Positions 1,579 through 8,569 of a stretch of DNA of 12,470 nucleotides are shown here, in pieces. Both the position numbers and the translations under genes were made by a program. The notes beneath the pieces are model-generated. The model was not told where the DNA came from. It worked only from the letters and a program-made list of their open reading frames with translations, and did not search any database. Numbering within the stretch: position 1 is the stretch's first letter; every line of letters starts with the position of its first letter. This stretch comes from Caryophanales bacterium (GTDB taxonomy: Bacteria; Bacillota_I; Bacilli_A; RFN20; CAG-826): contig JAEEHE010000061.1 of the NCBI GenBank assembly GCA_016280685.1, positions 1 to 12,470 on the forward strand, given 5' to 3'.

Positions 1579-4197
1579 ATGAACAAATTAACGAAGATAA
1601 TCCTTGCCTCAAGCCTAGCCATCGGTGCAGGTGCTGCGGCAATTTTGAGTTTTAAATCCACAATTAAAGAACAATCAGTGGAATCTAAAGCTGAAGAAGA
1701 AGTGGTTCCTGATGGTACTGTTTCTAGGCCTTATAAAATTTCTTCTTATGAAGATTTGCAATTGATGAATAACACTCCAAGAGATGGAACGCCTACATAT
1801 TATTCTTTAGCGGAATCTTGGGTTTATCACGAAAAAATGAACATAAACTATGTTGATATTTCTTGCTATGGTTCTGACGGCAAAAAAGTAATTTGGCTCG
1901 ATCTCAATGGTAAAACAATCATGAGAGAGGGTAAATCAACCGATACTTCTACGTTCCATATTTTTGGTCTTGTTGAAATGTATATTTACGATTCTCATCG
2001 AGGATCAGGTGAGATACAAATGTGGCTTGATAATTACAGCAGTGATTCATCTTTATTTTCTGTAACAGCAGGAGCTACTTTGAATATCATTAATGGTAGA
2101 TATACTTATCTAATGGAATATAGGGATTCCGTTTATGGTGGTGGCAGTCAATTCGCGCATCGCGGTGATATTTTTAATATTAGTGGTACTGGCAAAGTTA
2201 ATATCTATGATGGTTATTTCAATGCTGCTGACCATGTTATTTATTCCGAAAAATCCTCGGGAGTAACCATATATAATGGACAATTTAGAAATTTAAGAGA
2301 TTATACTGTCTTTGCGAATCGTATACTTGTTACTCTATATGGCGAGGGGGAAAAATTTGCCGATACTTTAGGACCTTCAACGACATTCTCTCCCGAACCA
2401 GATGAATGGTGTGGCGATGATCAATTATGGGGCGCAGCTTCTTTTACATTCACTTCCAAGAATTCCTACCTCATCTACTCAAACATTCCCAATAATTTCA
2501 GCGAGATAACTATTGATCAAGGCGGAGAATACGCTTTTACCATCTGGCGTTCCAATGCTTATGATTTTAAATGGAAATTAGATAATACAACCATTACTGA
2601 AGATAGCCATCCAGCATTACAGTTAATTGGTGAAAATACTTTAGTGATTAAGCCGTCATTAGCTAATGGGTTATTAGATAATCATTACATTTTTTTGTCT
2701 TTTAAATTTATGAAAAACCAAGAATTTGTGACTAGAGACAATGAATATATTGGAATTCATGTTAATAGAACACATTATGTCATTACTTTTGATTTAGATG
2801 GACATGGTGAGAATATGTATGAATTTTCGCCGATGTCTGAAAGTAGAACTTTTGCCGATGTCGTCAATAGTGTTACTCCACCAGAAAATGATTATGACTA
2901 TTATTTCTTAGGTTTCGCTAAAGATAAACTTAGCTATTACGCAAATGCTAATTCTTTCGTTAGAGCCGCGAATGCCTTAAAAACCGATACCAATCTTATC
3001 GACTTTGACTACATCTTATATGGTGGTTGGAGAGGATACGATGATGATGTGGATGGATTAACATTCAATCAACCGACAATTAAACAACTTGATGCAAATG
3101 GTGATTTACAAAGTATTGGTAAAGTTAGCTTCTCTGGTTTAATAGAAAAATCTTTATATTACACACAATTCTATGAATTTTTATTGAAAATTACTTTTTC
3201 CTCATTCCATGCACAAGATGATGAAACCGAGACATTAGATTACTCTATCTATTATAAGATTGGCGACGCTGAACCAGTTAAATACGATGGAGTTTCACCT
3301 AAATATATCACCTTCTTCAACAAAGGAAATGGTGTGACTGATGAAGTGGAATTATTAATTCAAATTGATGGTTTCGCTAATAGAAATGCTGATAAGAATT
3401 ACGTTGGTGAATTCTCTTATAAAACATACATTTATGATAGTGAAGATGTCATAGCTAAATCTTATTCTGATGCCGCTCCCACAAATCTTTATATGCTTAA
3501 AGATGAGCCGGTTCCAGTGGTTTTAGAATCAATCAGTTTATCCGGTACACAACAAACTACATTTAGATTAGGAGATACATTCTCATCTGAAGGTTTAGTG
3601 GTCACTGCAAATTATAGCAACGGTACATCTAATGATGTTACTGGCGCATGCACAATCAGTGAACCAGATATGAGTACAACGGGTGTCAAAGATGTTAATG
3701 TCAGTTATACTGATGGTGATGTCACTAAAACAGCATCATATCAAATCAATGTGGTTCCTGCAGAAACACCAGTTCTATTTGAATCCATTAGCTTATCTGG
3801 TGATTATAAAACTGAATTCAAAGTTGGTGATACATTTACTTCTGAAGGTTTAGTGGTCACCGCTCATTATGATGGCAAAGACGATGAAGAAGTCACAGGC
3901 TTTGAAGTTGATTCTTCTGCCGTTAATATGAATGAAGCTGGCATTTATACAGTTACAGTTAGTTATACAGTGGAAGAAGTCACCAATTCTGCAACCTATC
4001 AAGTAACAGTTACTGAAGAAGAAACTCCAGTTGATCCAGGTTCATCTGAAGAACCAGAAACACCAGAAACATCAGAAACCCCAGAAACCCCCAAGAAAAA
4101 AGGTTGTGGTGGTTCCCTCTTAGCGGCTTCTATCGCAATTCCTACTCTCTTAGGATTAGGTGCCTTAATGCTCATCAAAAAGAGAAAAGAAAAATAA
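1579..4197 (+). CDS. Large secreted surface protein with Ig-like domains and Cys-Gly-Gly C-terminal anchor
   Basis: This 872-residue protein is exported and probably displayed on the cell surface. ATG 1579 follows GGAGG (1567-1571) at ideal spacing and gives a clean signal peptide (residues 1-24, KIILASSLAIGAGAAAIL); the longer frame from TTG 1504 has no ribosome site. Residues 40-280 carry repeated short beta units such as WLDLNGKTI, FNISGTGKVNIYDGYF and GVTIYNGQF, suggesting a right-handed beta-helix. Residues 398-485 (ITFDLDGHG to YGGW) resemble the Listeria/Bacteroides InlB repeat. Two Ig-like domains of the Big_3-like type follow (649-728 and 733-813), then a Pro/Glu/Thr linker and a terminal KKKGCGGS (Cys843), a hydrophobic helix and KKRKEK. 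There is no LPXTG motif. Ligand binding or adhesion is inference only. No catalytic motif was recognised. Confidence 0.85.
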   Translation: MNKLTKIILASSLAIGAGAAAILSFKSTIKEQSVESKAEEEVVPDGTVSRPYKISSYEDLQLMNNTPRDGTPTYYSLAESWVYHEKMNINYVDISCYGSDGKKVIWLDLNGKTIMREGKSTDTSTFHIFGLVEMYIYDSHRGSGEIQMWLDNYSSDSSLFSVTAGATLNIINGRYTYLMEYRDSVYGGGSQFAHRGDIFNISGTGKVNIYDGYFNAADHVIYSEKSSGVTIYNGQFRNLRDYTVFANRILVTLYGEGEKFADTLGPSTTFSPEPDEWCGDDQLWGAASFTFTSKNSYLIYSNIPNNFSEITIDQGGEYAFTIWRSNAYDFKWKLDNTTITEDSHPALQLIGENTLVIKPSLANGLLDNHYIFLSFKFMKNQEFVTRDNEYIGIHVNRTHYVITFDLDGHGENMYEFSPMSESRTFADVVNSVTPPENDYDYYFLGFAKDKLSYYANANSFVRAANALKTDTNLIDFDYILYGGWRGYDDDVDGLTFNQPTIKQLDANGDLQSIGKVSFSGLIEKSLYYTQFYEFLLKITFSSFHAQDDETETLDYSIYYKIGDAEPVKYDGVSPKYITFFNKGNGVTDEVELLIQIDGFANRNADKNYVGEFSYKTYIYDSEDVIAKSYSDAAPTNLYMLKDEPVPVVLESISLSGTQQTTFRLGDTFSSEGLVVTANYSNGTSNDVTGACTISEPDMSTTGVKDVNVSYTDGDVTKTASYQINVVPAETPVLFESISLSGDYKTEFKVGDTFTSEGLVVTAHYDGKDDEEVTGFEVDSSAVNMNEAGIYTVTVSYTVEEVTNSATYQVTVTEEETPVDPGSSEEPETPETSETPETPKKKGCGGSLLAASIAIPTLLGLGALMLIKKRKEK
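3523..4020 (+). repeat. Tandem duplication encoding two Ig-like domains
   Basis: Two domains of about 80 residues share L/FESISLSG at the start and SEGLVVTA in the middle, and both end in a T-A/S-x-Y-Q-x-x-V strand. A 20-nt stretch is identical in both copies (3586-3605 and 3841-3860), 255 nt or 85 codons apart. The rest has diverged, so this is an old in-frame domain duplication that kept a short conserved core. Confidence 0.75.
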
Positions 4198-4217: not shown

Positions 4218-4241
4218 AAGGTCGAGTCTTCTCGGCCTTTT
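4218..4241 (+). terminator. Rho-independent terminator of the surface protein gene
   Basis: The 9-bp stem AAGGTCGAG / CTCGGCCTT (4218-4226 with 4231-4239, one G-T pair) closes a TCTT loop and is followed by TTTT. AT-rich flanks TAATATTAA and TTAATATA can extend the stem, so it may work in both directions. It lies 20 nt after tandem TAA TAA stops. Confidence 0.85.
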
Positions 4242-4260
4242 AATATAGGCGATTTATAAG

Positions 4261-5245: not shown

Positions 5246-5269
5246 AAACAATACATGGAGGGTTTTATG

Positions 5270-6016
5270 ATGAAAACTTCTAAATTAATTAAATTATTAC
5301 CATTAACAACATTGTTATTAACAGGCTGTTTCGATCAATCTATCAGCAAAGAAGACTTCGCTGCTAAATTAGAAGAAATCAACCAAAATCTCAATGTGGA
5401 AAATGAAAAACTCAAAAACTGTAGAGCTCAATCTCGTTTAGGCATTGAAACATATAACTATAAAGAAGGCGAATATTATTCCTATAAATATTTCGCTCTC
5501 ATTTTAATTATCCCAGTGAGCTATGGTTCTTATACTTGGAAAGATGATGCTGGTTATCACAATTTCGAAGATAAGTCTATTGGTAATGATGTAAAATCAG
5601 AATTAACTGAAGAAGAATTCAACACCAAGATGGAAGGCCGCAAAGCCACAATTCTCGGTGTCTTTAGAAAACCATATGAAATCGCGAAGGCTTTAATGGA
5701 TGAAAATTACTTAAATTATTTAAATCCAGAAGGATTCTTTGATTATTCTTTAACTTATGCGAATAAATATACAAAGAACGGTAATACCTATAAGATTATT
5801 TCTACCGCAACATATACTTATAATGCCGATCATCAAAATGGAAATGATGACGTTATGAGCGTTAAATACACGATTACTTTCAAAGATAACTTACCAACTA
5901 AGTTAGAAACCGAAAAGAAAGAACGCGATGGTGATAAATCCAAAGACCACTGGAAATATTCCTATAGCAATTCCGCTTTCTCTGACCCAACCGCATCTAG
6001 TGAACAATCTGAATAG
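5270..6016 (+). CDS. Putative lipoprotein of unknown function (paralogue 1)
   Basis: A 248-residue exported lipoprotein. The signal MKTSKLIKLLPLTTLLLTGC ends in the lipobox LTGC, making Cys20 the lipidated N-terminus after cleavage, so it should sit on the outer face of the membrane. The upstream ATG at 5255 is rejected because it overlaps the ribosome site GGAGGG (5257-5262). ATG 5270 is at the best spacing, with 5267 a close alternative. The mature part is charged, with NYKEGEYY, YTWKDDAGYHNF, SELTEEEFNTKM and YTITFKDNLPTKLE in order, and no known domain is recognised. The same blocks recur in order in the next gene, so the two form a duplicated pair. Function unknown; a solute-binding or envelope structural role would be speculation. 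Confidence 0.83.
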   Translation: MKTSKLIKLLPLTTLLLTGCFDQSISKEDFAAKLEEINQNLNVENEKLKNCRAQSRLGIETYNYKEGEYYSYKYFALILIIPVSYGSYTWKDDAGYHNFEDKSIGNDVKSELTEEEFNTKMEGRKATILGVFRKPYEIAKALMDENYLNYLNPEGFFDYSLTYANKYTKNGNTYKIISTATYTYNADHQNGNDDVMSVKYTITFKDNLPTKLETEKKERDGDKSKDHWKYSYSNSAFSDPTASSEQSE

Positions 6017-6113: not shown

Positions 6114-6836
6114 ATGAATAAATTATTACTCGTATCATTAAGCTTAATGGCAATCTTATCCTTAGGCGGATGTAAAAACAAAGGTAAAGACAAATCTGGA
6201 CAAGAATCCGGTGGCTCTTCCGAACAAAAAACGACCTGTACATTAGAAGAATTTAAAGAGAGATTAAACGCTAACGATGCTTCTTTTGGTGAAGAAGAAA
6301 ACCCAAAACTTAAAAATATCTCTTATAAATCCGGAACTGTTTTAAGTCTACATCCTGTCAATTATAAAGAAGGCGAATTCTACGATAGTCAAGAAGGATT
6401 AGGCGGTAGAAGAAGCATTTGGAAAGATAGTGACGGCTTCCACAAATATGTTAAAACATTATTTGGAGGAGAGACTTATTCAGAATTAACCGAAGAACAG
6501 TTTGAAGCGGAAATGGCTAGCGGCAAACAAACAGTCCATTCTATTGTCTATACACCTATTCAAATGGCAAAAGAATTAATCGCTGAAAAAGAGGGTGGCG
6601 AAAGCGAAAGAAGAATATCCTTTAAATTCTCTGTCTCTATCTTAGGTAACTATCGTATGGAAGCGACAGTGGTGTTTACTGAAAAGGATTATGAAGAAAA
6701 TATCGTGGAACACACTGATGTTTATACAATTTCTCTTGGTGAAGATCTACCTTATCAATATCAATATGATAGAGATGATAGCAATCAAACCGCTCATACA
6801 TTCCAATACGGTAACGCAAGTTTCGATAGACCATAA
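6114..6836 (+). CDS. Putative lipoprotein of unknown function (paralogue 2)
   Basis: A 240-residue exported lipoprotein. The signal MNKLLLVSLSLMAILSLGGC gives a lipobox LGGC with Cys20 as the lipidation site, followed by a flexible Lys/Ser/Gly-rich spacer to about residue 40. AGGAGG (6101-6106) is ideally placed before ATG 6114. The folded part repeats the landmarks of the preceding gene in the same order: NYKEGEFY, SIWKDSDGFHKY, SELTEEQFEAEM, an I-x-M-A-K-E-L helix, YTISLGEDLPY and a final YGNASF. No domain of known function is recognised. A terminator stands between the two genes, so they can be expressed separately. An outer-surface location follows from the lipobox; any ligand is unknown. 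Confidence 0.85.
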   Translation: MNKLLLVSLSLMAILSLGGCKNKGKDKSGQESGGSSEQKTTCTLEEFKERLNANDASFGEEENPKLKNISYKSGTVLSLHPVNYKEGEFYDSQEGLGGRRSIWKDSDGFHKYVKTLFGGETYSELTEEQFEAEMASGKQTVHSIVYTPIQMAKELIAEKEGGESERRISFKFSVSILGNYRMEATVVFTEKDYEENIVEHTDVYTISLGEDLPYQYQYDRDDSNQTAHTFQYGNASFDRP

Positions 6837-7015: not shown

Positions 7016-8569
7016 ATGGACAAAATGAAGTCCTTGAGAAAGAGCGTTATCGCTTTAGGTGTTTTCGCGTTATTAGCCTTTGTTGTTTGGGGTGGTGTTT
7101 TTGCGACATTATTCTTAACAACCAAAGATTTTGATTTCTTGAAATTACACCTTAATCAGTTGGTCGACTTAATTGCCTTACCATTTAAAGGTGGTTTCGG
7201 TCCATCAACAGTCTATTTCCCAGAAGCACTTGTTGTTGTTTCTATTTTAGGATTAGATGTTTTATTCCTTGTCTTAACAATCATCTTCAGTATTGTTAAA
7301 CGTCGTGGTGTTATGGTGTTCCCATTCATCGCTTTCTTACTCTGTGGCGCAGCATCTGCAGAAGTCGCTGCTAACTTACCTACTTACACAGTTGGTGATA
7401 CATCCACAGCTTCCGGTTATTTAGCCTTAGTTAAATTAGGTTCATCTAACATTATCGGAACATTAATGGGCATTTTAGCGTTAGTATTTGGTACCTTAGC
7501 TGGTGTCTTAGCCTTATTAGCCATGATCTTATCAATGCCATGCAACTTCATGAAGAAAGCCAATAAAGAAGAAGAAGCTGCTCGTTTTGCTGAAGAACCA
7601 GAACCAGAGGAAGAAGAAGTTGAACTTACCGCTGAAAATATCAGAGGCATGATCAGAGATGAATTAAGAGCTGCTCAACCTGCTGGAAACAATGTCACCG
7701 GTGCGACATTTGCCGGTCCATTAGTGGTCCAATATTTCAATGGTCCTGCTCCAGTTCAACCACAACCTGAACAAAAAGAAGAACCCAAAAAAGAAGAACC
7801 AGTTCCATACGTGGAAGAAGTTGCTGTTCCTGAACCATATTGCGAACCAGAGCCAGTTAAAGAAGAAGAACCTGCTCCAGTCGAACCCGAACCACAACCA
7901 GAACCACAACCTGAACCCGAGCCACAACCAGAGCCCGAGCCAGAGCCACAACCTGAACCAGAACCAGAGCCACAACCCGAACCAGAACCAGAGCCACAAC
8001 CCGAACCAGAACCAGAGCCAGTTCAACCTGAACCAGAGCCAGTCCAAGAAGTAGTGGTCCCTGTCGTTGAAGCCCCAGTTGAAGAACCCGCTCCCGAAAA
8101 GAAACCAATTATCCGTATTCCTTTCGAAGAACGTATGGTCAAAGCTGATAAGGAAATGAAAGATAACTATAACGAAATTAAGAATGAAATTCTTAGTTAT
8201 GGTGTCAAATCTCGTATTTCCAATTCTGGCGACACATTCCGTTTACACCGCAAAACATACATTAAGCTCACAATTGCTGGTAAGAGCTTAAAATTATACT
8301 TCGCTCTTGATCCTAAAGATTACAGAGATACTACTATCCCAGTGCAAGATGCTGGTGAAAAAGGCATCTATGAAGAAATCCCATTGGTCTTCAAAGTCAA
8401 ATCCGGTTTATCCATCAAGAGATGTAAACAACTCATCGCTGATGTCATGGAAAAAGACAATTTAGTCCAAGGCGAAATCGGTAAAGTCAACTGGGTTAAA
8501 GAAATCCAAGCTAACTTAAGAGAAGAAAAGAAAGCCGCTAAAGCTGCTGCTGAAGCTGACGAAGATTAA
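7016..8569 (+). CDS. Membrane protein with Pro/Glu repeat stalk and conserved C-terminal domain
   Basis: A 517-residue protein of unknown function. Four hydrophobic segments are visible, near residues 10-32, 68-92, 98-118 and 143-172. An acidic linker with a helical [15 protein letters not shown] stretch leads to a long Pro/Glu/Gln-rich region (about 240-350) containing four PQPEPEPE units. The C-terminal domain (about 363-500) contains [20 protein letters not shown] and then [17 protein letters not shown], a pattern I recognise as recurring in Bacillota proteins but cannot name. The tail is Lys/Ala-rich. AGGAGG at 7003-7008 fixes the start. The basic KRRG after helix 2 and KKANK after helix 4 suggest that the stalk and C-terminal domain are cytoplasmic, by the positive-inside rule. 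A structural or scaffold role is a guess. Monocistronic. Confidence 0.83.
7922..8017 (+). repeat. Four tandem 24-bp repeats encoding PQPEPEPE
   Basis: Units start at 7922, 7946, 7970 and 7994. The last two are identical and the first two differ by a few silent changes. Looser Pro/Glu codon repeats extend on both sides (about 7880-8045). Because the unit is a multiple of three, gain or loss of copies keeps the frame. The same periodicity creates long open frames on both strands that are not genes. Confidence 0.93.

Follow-up and report, generated by a model that had tools for sequence, protein, structure and literature searches.

How is a secreted protein held at the cell surface when its C terminus has the general build of a sorting signal and carries no LPXTG box? 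This question is raised by a stretch of 12,470 nucleotides (hereafter the window) from a Caryophanales bacterium of the CAG-826 lineage (GenBank assembly GCA_016280685.1, contig JAEEHE010000061.1), which encodes a surface protein of 872 residues that ends in the tail KKKGCGGS-LLAASIAIPTLLGLGALMLI-KKRKEK. Re-reading of the open reading frame (ORF) and its codons showed that the coordinates given in the initial annotation of the window and its numbering of the tail Cys (Cys843) are right. The layout described there, a Pro/Glu/Thr-rich spacer followed by KKKGCGGS, a helix and KKRKEK, with no LPXTG box, is what the sequence reads (Table 1). The length of 872 residues is counted from the ATG at 1579; an alternative in-frame TTG start at 1504 would give 897 residues.

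In related genomes the tail was found on many unrelated secreted proteins, and its presence follows that of a CPBP/Rce1-type intramembrane protease and of an Lgt-type lipid transferase, here called Lgt2, whose gene is tightly linked to that of the protease. Based on these comparisons of sequences, the tail is probably a C-terminal sorting signal for lipid anchoring, with Lgt2 lipidating the Cys and the CPBP protease removing the helix. Co-occurrence of the tail with either enzyme was measured throughout in relatives of the window's organism.

The tail on unrelated secreted proteins

A search with the last 40 residues of the window protein found the tail on five of 27 scored candidates. These were one orthologue and four proteins of different make-up, both in Pfam content and in sequence, including endonuclease I and InlB-repeat proteins. 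With a profile built from 11 tails (A1), 32 of 144 related genomes gave matches at E ≤ 0.01, 27 of them also at E ≤ 0.001, with up to 10 copies per genome, and a profile search of 279 genomes of the order found it in 77 at E ≤ 0.001. That both the 40-residue search and the profile searches find the tail on other proteins and in many genomes argues that it is not a product of chance. Two other ways of finding it were discarded: a DNA pattern (K-G-C-G-G plus half a codon) matched nine of 95 genomes and missed variants, and the window's own tail as a protein query was too narrow, matching two of seven genomes. When orthologues of the window protein were sought in 19 genomes, 14 matched, with query residues 569–872 only.

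Gly-Cys was the sole invariant pair in 75 aligned tails, likewise a set chosen for this dipeptide, every other column being below 90%, and the consensus was G-C-x-G-S/N, often preceded by K. Among 40 full-length tail proteins (the window protein, 35 from loci and P0002–P0005, again chosen for Gly-Cys), it alone was invariant across 3,323 alignment columns. The Pfam content of these proteins was varied: Big_2 (10), Peptidase_S8 (9), GH3 (9), Endonuclease_1 (8), Big_3 (8), GH32 (2) and LRR_5 (1). The initial annotation had considered that the tail might prove confined to one protein family, or its Cys variable among homologues. Instead, the tail is common to GH3, subtilase, GH32, endonuclease I, Ig-like and leucine-rich-repeat proteins of related genomes, and Gly-Cys is present in all 80 tails that we read (26 genomes), a set that was selected for this dipeptide and covers part of the profile matches (81 tails before the antisense ORF L032 was dropped). 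Masking of the Cys cost a median of 12 bits and left 80/80 tails at 20 bits or more, so that Cys-less copies should have been found. Three weaker matches were read that have no Cys (L074, E 2.6e-5; L075, E 1.6e-3; L076, E 2.0e-3); they begin at profile positions 13, 7 and 10, respectively, which lie beyond the Cys.

A different helix tail, also Cys-less, was observed at the end of some large secreted proteins of related genomes (L172–L174, L177 and L195). It is preceded by a conserved block resembling A-R-x-R-L-x-A-W-A-x-x-x-G-K.

The protease and the linked lipid transferase

Two kinds of intramembrane protease, rhombosortase and CPBP-like, had been put forward in the initial annotation, and the second of these was borne out. 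The tail follows one clade of CPBP/Rce1-type proteases, which was found in 68 of the 77 tail genomes compared with 14 of the 202 others. No rhomboid was found in the tail set: PF01694, as expected of a GlyGly-CTERM/rhombosortase type of system, matched four of 144 genomes, none with the tail. Sortase was likewise rejected, since PF04203 was present in two of the 144 genomes, neither with the tail. The copy number of CPBP proved too coarse a marker, as 138 of the 144 genomes have CPBP proteins. Five copies of another type (CEELTYR) were distinguished by eye, four of them also by tree. The catalytic residues E, E, R, H and H are kept in all 37 Lgt2-adjacent CPBPs tested and in 7/7 others.

In 17 of the 21 neighbourhoods of CPBP genes, the protease gene has a partner that adjoins or overlaps it. 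Ten neighbours were scanned: all eight partner genes matched PF01790 (Lgt) at the Pfam gathering score, and the remaining two, from loci without the pair, were unrelated to Lgt. The nearest solved structure to Lgt2, by sequence and by fold, is E. coli Lgt. An Lgt-type lipid transferase linked to the protease also tracks the tail, which goes beyond what the initial annotation had proposed. Among the 279 genomes, 66 have both tail and Lgt2, 11 the tail only, seven Lgt2 only and 195 neither, a concordance of 261/279; expressed otherwise, Lgt2 is present in 66/77 tail genomes and in 7/202 others. The Lgt2 profile (A6) separated 73 genomes, at 168 bits or more, from the next lower match at 158 bits. 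Family counts, which are independent of that profile, gave at least two Lgt genes in 63/77 tail genomes and in 20/202 others. Lgt2 and the CPBP occur together in 71 genomes, the CPBP alone in 12, Lgt2 alone in two and neither in 194. The two genes lie within 200 bp of each other in 63 of the 71, about 2 kb apart in three and on different contigs in five, and 58 of the 77 tail genomes have an adjacent pair. The 63 adjacent pairs are arranged in four ways (33 with Lgt2 first, 21 with CPBP first, six divergent and three convergent). Because the linkage persists through rearrangement, it points to a joint function of Lgt2 and CPBP beyond shared ancestry alone.

These data bear on two alternatives. 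Processing of the tail by the CPBP alone, which has been proposed for other Cys-CTERM systems, is unlikely; Lgt2 would then serve elsewhere (e.g., on N-terminal lipoproteins), and the Cys would be either lipidated by the housekeeping Lgt or used for recognition only. In its favour, the MYXO-CTERM tail is cleaved in E. coli by MrtX without an added transferase, according to the available part of PMC11980579; Lgt2 lacks N146 (see below); and some tail genomes with a CPBP had no detectable Lgt2 (G008, G141 and G156), the match that was read in G008 having no Cys. Against it stand the adjacency of the two genes in four arrangements, the concordance of tail and Lgt2, and the joint absence of Lgt2, the Cys tail and an intact CPBP active site from the six nearest relatives. 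We give the least credence to the tail being a plain membrane anchor whose Cys persists for disulfide formation or through common descent, with co-occurrence due to shared ancestry only. Such an anchor would fit with three observations: the genomes are related and the tree does not enter our tests, Cys-less helices terminate other Big_3 proteins of the closest relatives, and G037 has 10 tail copies and a split CPBP gene. Yet the full-length tail proteins share nothing besides Gly-Cys, the enzyme pair stays together through repeated changes of gene order, and loss of the tail is accompanied by loss of the active site.

Two further observations concern these gene families. Six genomes (G041, G101, G117, G163, G172 and, as its second gene, G157) have an Lgt paralogue scoring 139–158 bits with the Lgt2 profile, which is distinct both from Lgt2 and from the lower-scoring copies. 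In five genomes (L263–L267) the Lgt2-CPBP pair and the nearest tail-bearing gene of the repeated family f2, taken to be GH3, are separated by 4 to 7 kb, in which a tail-less f2 member is found.

Proposed pathway and known sorting systems

We propose a lipidation-then-cleavage scheme because of the analogy with MYXO-CTERM. Sec would export the precursor, and the C-terminal helix would halt in the membrane with GCGGS at the outer face. Lgt2, as a dedicated Lgt paralogue, would add a diacylglyceryl moiety to the thiol of the Cys; its CPBP partner, an Rce1-like glutamate/histidine enzyme, would then cut just after the lipidated Cys. With the helix and the basic end removed, the protein would stay attached to the outer leaflet by a lipidated Cys at its C terminus. 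The sharing of the tail and its co-occurrence with CPBP and Lgt2 in relatives support the suggestion in the initial annotation that it may mark a cleavage/lipidation sorting system; these two reactions, their order, the lipid, the cleavage site and the presence of the pair in the window's organism are what we infer. We also incline, with less assurance, to regard the system as a two-enzyme C-terminal lipoprotein pathway, the mirror image of Lgt/LspA, made up of a GCC-motif Lgt paralogue and an Rce1-like protease. A Cys placed before a C-terminal helix has a membrane topology opposite to that of a signal peptide.

The parallel with MYXO-CTERM that had been drawn from the window alone holds for both the layout of the tail and the type of protease. 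In Myxococcus xanthus, a tripartite tail (a motif with an invariant Cys, a helix and a basic end) is likewise found on many secreted proteins and is paired with MrtX, a CPBP protease (PMC11980579, available part). The Bacilli tail differs in its motif, G-C-x-G-S/N, and in having a dedicated, linked Lgt paralogue. For MYXO-CTERM, the same part of that source reports that cleavage by the CPBP and its need for the Cys pair have been shown, and that lipidation is proposed to come first, through an enzyme still unknown and possibly Lgt-like. Guo et al. (2025) state there that no cognate transferase is known for MrtX, the acyl-transferase remaining unidentified with Lgt a leading candidate (PMC11980579).

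The MYXO-CTERM model TIGR03901 matched one of 75 tails at E ≤ 1 (best E 0.037), and so does not recognize the Bacilli tail. Six tail-associated CPBPs that were scanned all fell below the cut-offs of MrtS, MrtJ, MrtC and Mrt_core (NF040589, NF033192, NF040594 and NF040914), the best scores being 32.2 for MrtS (cut-off 130) and 30.2 for MrtJ (cut-off 75). Synerg-CTERM with MrtS and JDVT-CTERM with MrtJ are also Cys-containing C-terminal signals paired with CPBP-type enzymes, as is CGP-CTERM with MrtA. Of the families that the 75 tails matched, 25 of 30 in NCBIfam and 25 of 26 in Pfam were listed; the NCBIfam list contained none of these three signals, and neither list contained a model made for the present motif. 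The commonest matches among those listed were LPXTG_anchor (41/75 at E ≤ 1) and Gram_pos_anchor (40/75). LPXTG/sortase systems share the overall layout of a C-terminal sorting signal and differ in the LPXTG motif, which is missing here, and in the sortase, which does not accompany the tail. The 40-residue tail of the window protein nevertheless scored 16.7 bits with TIGR01167 (LPXTG_anchor; cut-off 15.9), a match to the helix and basic end at profile positions 12–33 of 34, whereas the whole window protein gave no match to that model. GCGGS-type tails can thus score as LPXTG_anchor in automatic annotation.

To examine Lgt2 itself, we used an alignment of 51 Lgt2 and 15 housekeeping Lgt sequences, five further housekeeping loci that did not score being left out. 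Lgt2 matches PF01790 and has the same fold as E. coli Lgt, from which it differs by Cys at the positions of N146 and E151: the housekeeping signature GRWGNFFNxEVxG becomes GRIGCFxxGCCxG, with the motif form GR-x-G-C-F-x-x-G-C-C. Cys occupies both positions in every ungapped row of the 51 Lgt2 (phmmer places a gap at E151), and the positions of R143 and R239 are Arg in every ungapped row. Equivalents of R143, R239, R246, Y235 and G154 are kept, and the H103 position is L, Y or F. All five Lgt2 scanned with TIGR00544 (cut-off 118.9) scored 47–76 bits, below the cut-off, which both housekeeping copies passed. According to the available part of PMC13251419, mutagenesis of E. coli Lgt found Y26, H103, R143, N146, G154 and R239 essential; N146C/E151C variants are recorded among distant Lgts, and L. 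interrogans and MSMEG_5408 have N146C; and Myxococcales are placed among Lgts without R143 and R239. Judging from these residues, Lgt2 would still bind phospholipid but act on a different protein substrate.

It is very unlikely that Lgt2 and the CPBP instead serve an accessory maturation of N-terminal lipoproteins, comparable to LnsB and N-acylation in S. aureus, with the tail being an uncleaved stop-transfer anchor. LnsB, a CPBP-fold protein, takes part in lipoprotein N-acylation in S. aureus (PMC7387801, available part), and genes of likely lipoproteins adjoin the surface protein gene in the window. LnsB is, however, described in that part as being without CPBP catalytic residues, in contrast to the 37/37 Lgt2-adjacent CPBPs that keep theirs, and such a role would leave both the Gly-Cys on unrelated proteins and the co-occurrence of the tail unexplained.

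The proposed system is a further Cys-CTERM/CPBP pairing, and its new elements are the signal, the lineage and, for the transferase that had been missing, a linked candidate. Our literature search, which covered few subscription papers, found no description of a GCGGS-type tail in Bacilli or of a linked Lgt-CPBP pair, which is not proof of absence. The best-studied Cys-CTERM system is without its proposed lipid-adding enzyme, and with a linked, co-occurring Lgt paralogue next to the protease that step can be tested directly, using two small genes and a single tail. If correct, our proposal would indicate what kind of transferase the myxosortase model has been missing, and the same lipidation step may be carried out by unusual Lgt paralogues in other phyla that have Cys-CTERM tails. 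It would also explain how glycosidases, proteases and nucleases are retained at the surface of sortase-poor Bacilli, and would represent a main surface-anchoring route of those that are sortase-less.

Points against the proposal, the closest relatives and the neighbouring genes

Several points weigh against lipid anchoring by Lgt2 and CPBP. Because the essential N146 is replaced by Cys, the chemistry of Lgt2 may differ. Nine of the 77 tail genomes are without the CPBP at the cut-offs used, one of which (G237) has a partial CPBP at 1.1e-18, and 11 are without Lgt2, three of these (G190, G201 and G228) having no Lgt match whatever. The missing Lgt in these three and the partial CPBP in G237 suggest incomplete assemblies. 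The two Lgts of another tail genome, G126, are both of a type other than Lgt2, and in seven genomes with Lgt2 no tail was found. In G037, whose 10 tails are the most in the 144 genomes, an intact Lgt2 gene adjoins a CPBP gene (L125) that is broken into two frames, either by a real lesion or by a sequencing error, and single stops interrupt the CPBP of G154 and the Lgt2 of G195 and of G236. The weak Mrt-family matches are unspecific, as two of two housekeeping CPBPs also give them (including MrtJ) and NF041647 is the best match for most. Solved structures searched by sequence with the CPBP profile gave no match where the fold comparison did, and Foldseek with the CPBP model found no PDB match at E ≤ 0.001. 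Other points concern how the counts were obtained: the Lgt2 cut-off of 160 bits was set after the gap in scores had been seen; most of the sequences in profiles A2 and A6 came from tail-bearing genomes, and A6 drew on new genomes too; CPBP and Lgt2 profile scoring covered at most nine first-look candidates in many genomes; and the co-occurrence tests ignore kinship among genomes.

The remaining points concern the window's own organism, which may lack a working Lgt2-CPBP pair, or whose surface protein gene may be a newcomer. The first is considered because its six closest relatives among the genomes searched are without Lgt2 and Cys tails and their CPBPs are catalytically changed. These relatives (G001–G004, G008 and G009) are metagenome-assembled genomes (MAGs) of unstated completeness, and G003 is without any Lgt match; the second CNNM-type protein of the window is 77.5–80% identical to those of the MAGs L001–L004, which makes its organism a relative of rumen Bacilli. 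A profile search found no Lgt2 in the six, and two tail searches found no tail in G001–G004 and G009. In G008 each tail search gave one weak match, the first of which is the Cys-less L074, the place of the second not being listed. In the closest relatives, the complete Big_3 proteins that were read terminate in helices without a Cys. The CPBPs of the six form one clade (support 100/99), nested in a larger group with Lgt2-adjacent CPBPs (89/87, not firm). The second catalytic His is gone from all six (L276, L277 and L243–L246), and two have lost the first as well. Where the transferase and the Cys tail are jointly absent, therefore, the active site of the protease is changed. These altered CPBPs may be decaying, or may have acquired a role other than proteolysis, which has been suggested for SpdC and LnsB.

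As for a newcomer gene, window segment 1504–6840, which comprises the surface protein gene, a DUF1848 radical-SAM gene and the two likely lipoprotein genes, is missing from the matching place in L004 (4899–8840), where the ABC permease and the Pro/Glu-rich membrane protein flank two other ORFs. Yet the window's own variant of the tail occurs, with its Cys unimpaired, on five database proteins including the orthologue. This would hardly be expected of a dead system, although the five may come from a different organism.

Table 1. Coordinates in the window of the surface protein gene, the parts of its tail and the two neighbouring genes of likely lipoproteins
Feature	Position	Strand	Basis
Surface protein gene, 872 residues	1579..4197	+	Sec-type N terminus MNKLTKIILASSLAIGAGAAAIL without an N-terminal lipobox Cys (by eye)
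Big_3 (PF07523), better of two bacterial Ig-like stretches, residues 743–811	3805..4011	+	E 4.4e-12
Pro/Glu/Thr/Ser-rich spacer, residues 813–838	4015..4092	+	Sequence
Signature KKKGCGGS, residues 839–846	4093..4116	+	Sequence and aligned tails
Cys843 codon (tgt), proposed lipidation site, cleavage proposed just after	4105..4107	+	Invariant with Gly842 in sets chosen for Gly-Cys
Single hydrophobic helix of 20 residues, 847–866, removal proposed	4117..4176	+	Sequence
Basic cytoplasmic end KKRKEK, residues 867–872, then taa stop	4177..4194	+	Sequence
Gene with LLTGC lipobox, likely ordinary lipoprotein	5255..6016	+	Lipobox by eye
Gene with LGGC lipobox, likely ordinary lipoprotein	6114..6836	+	Lipobox by eye

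By eye, a terminator-like hairpin followed by a T run was observed 3' of the surface protein gene, at about 4218–4242. Further downstream, a Pro-Glu-Pro-Gln repeat (7721–8108, within the ORF at 7016–8569) yields long antisense ORFs that are not credible genes.

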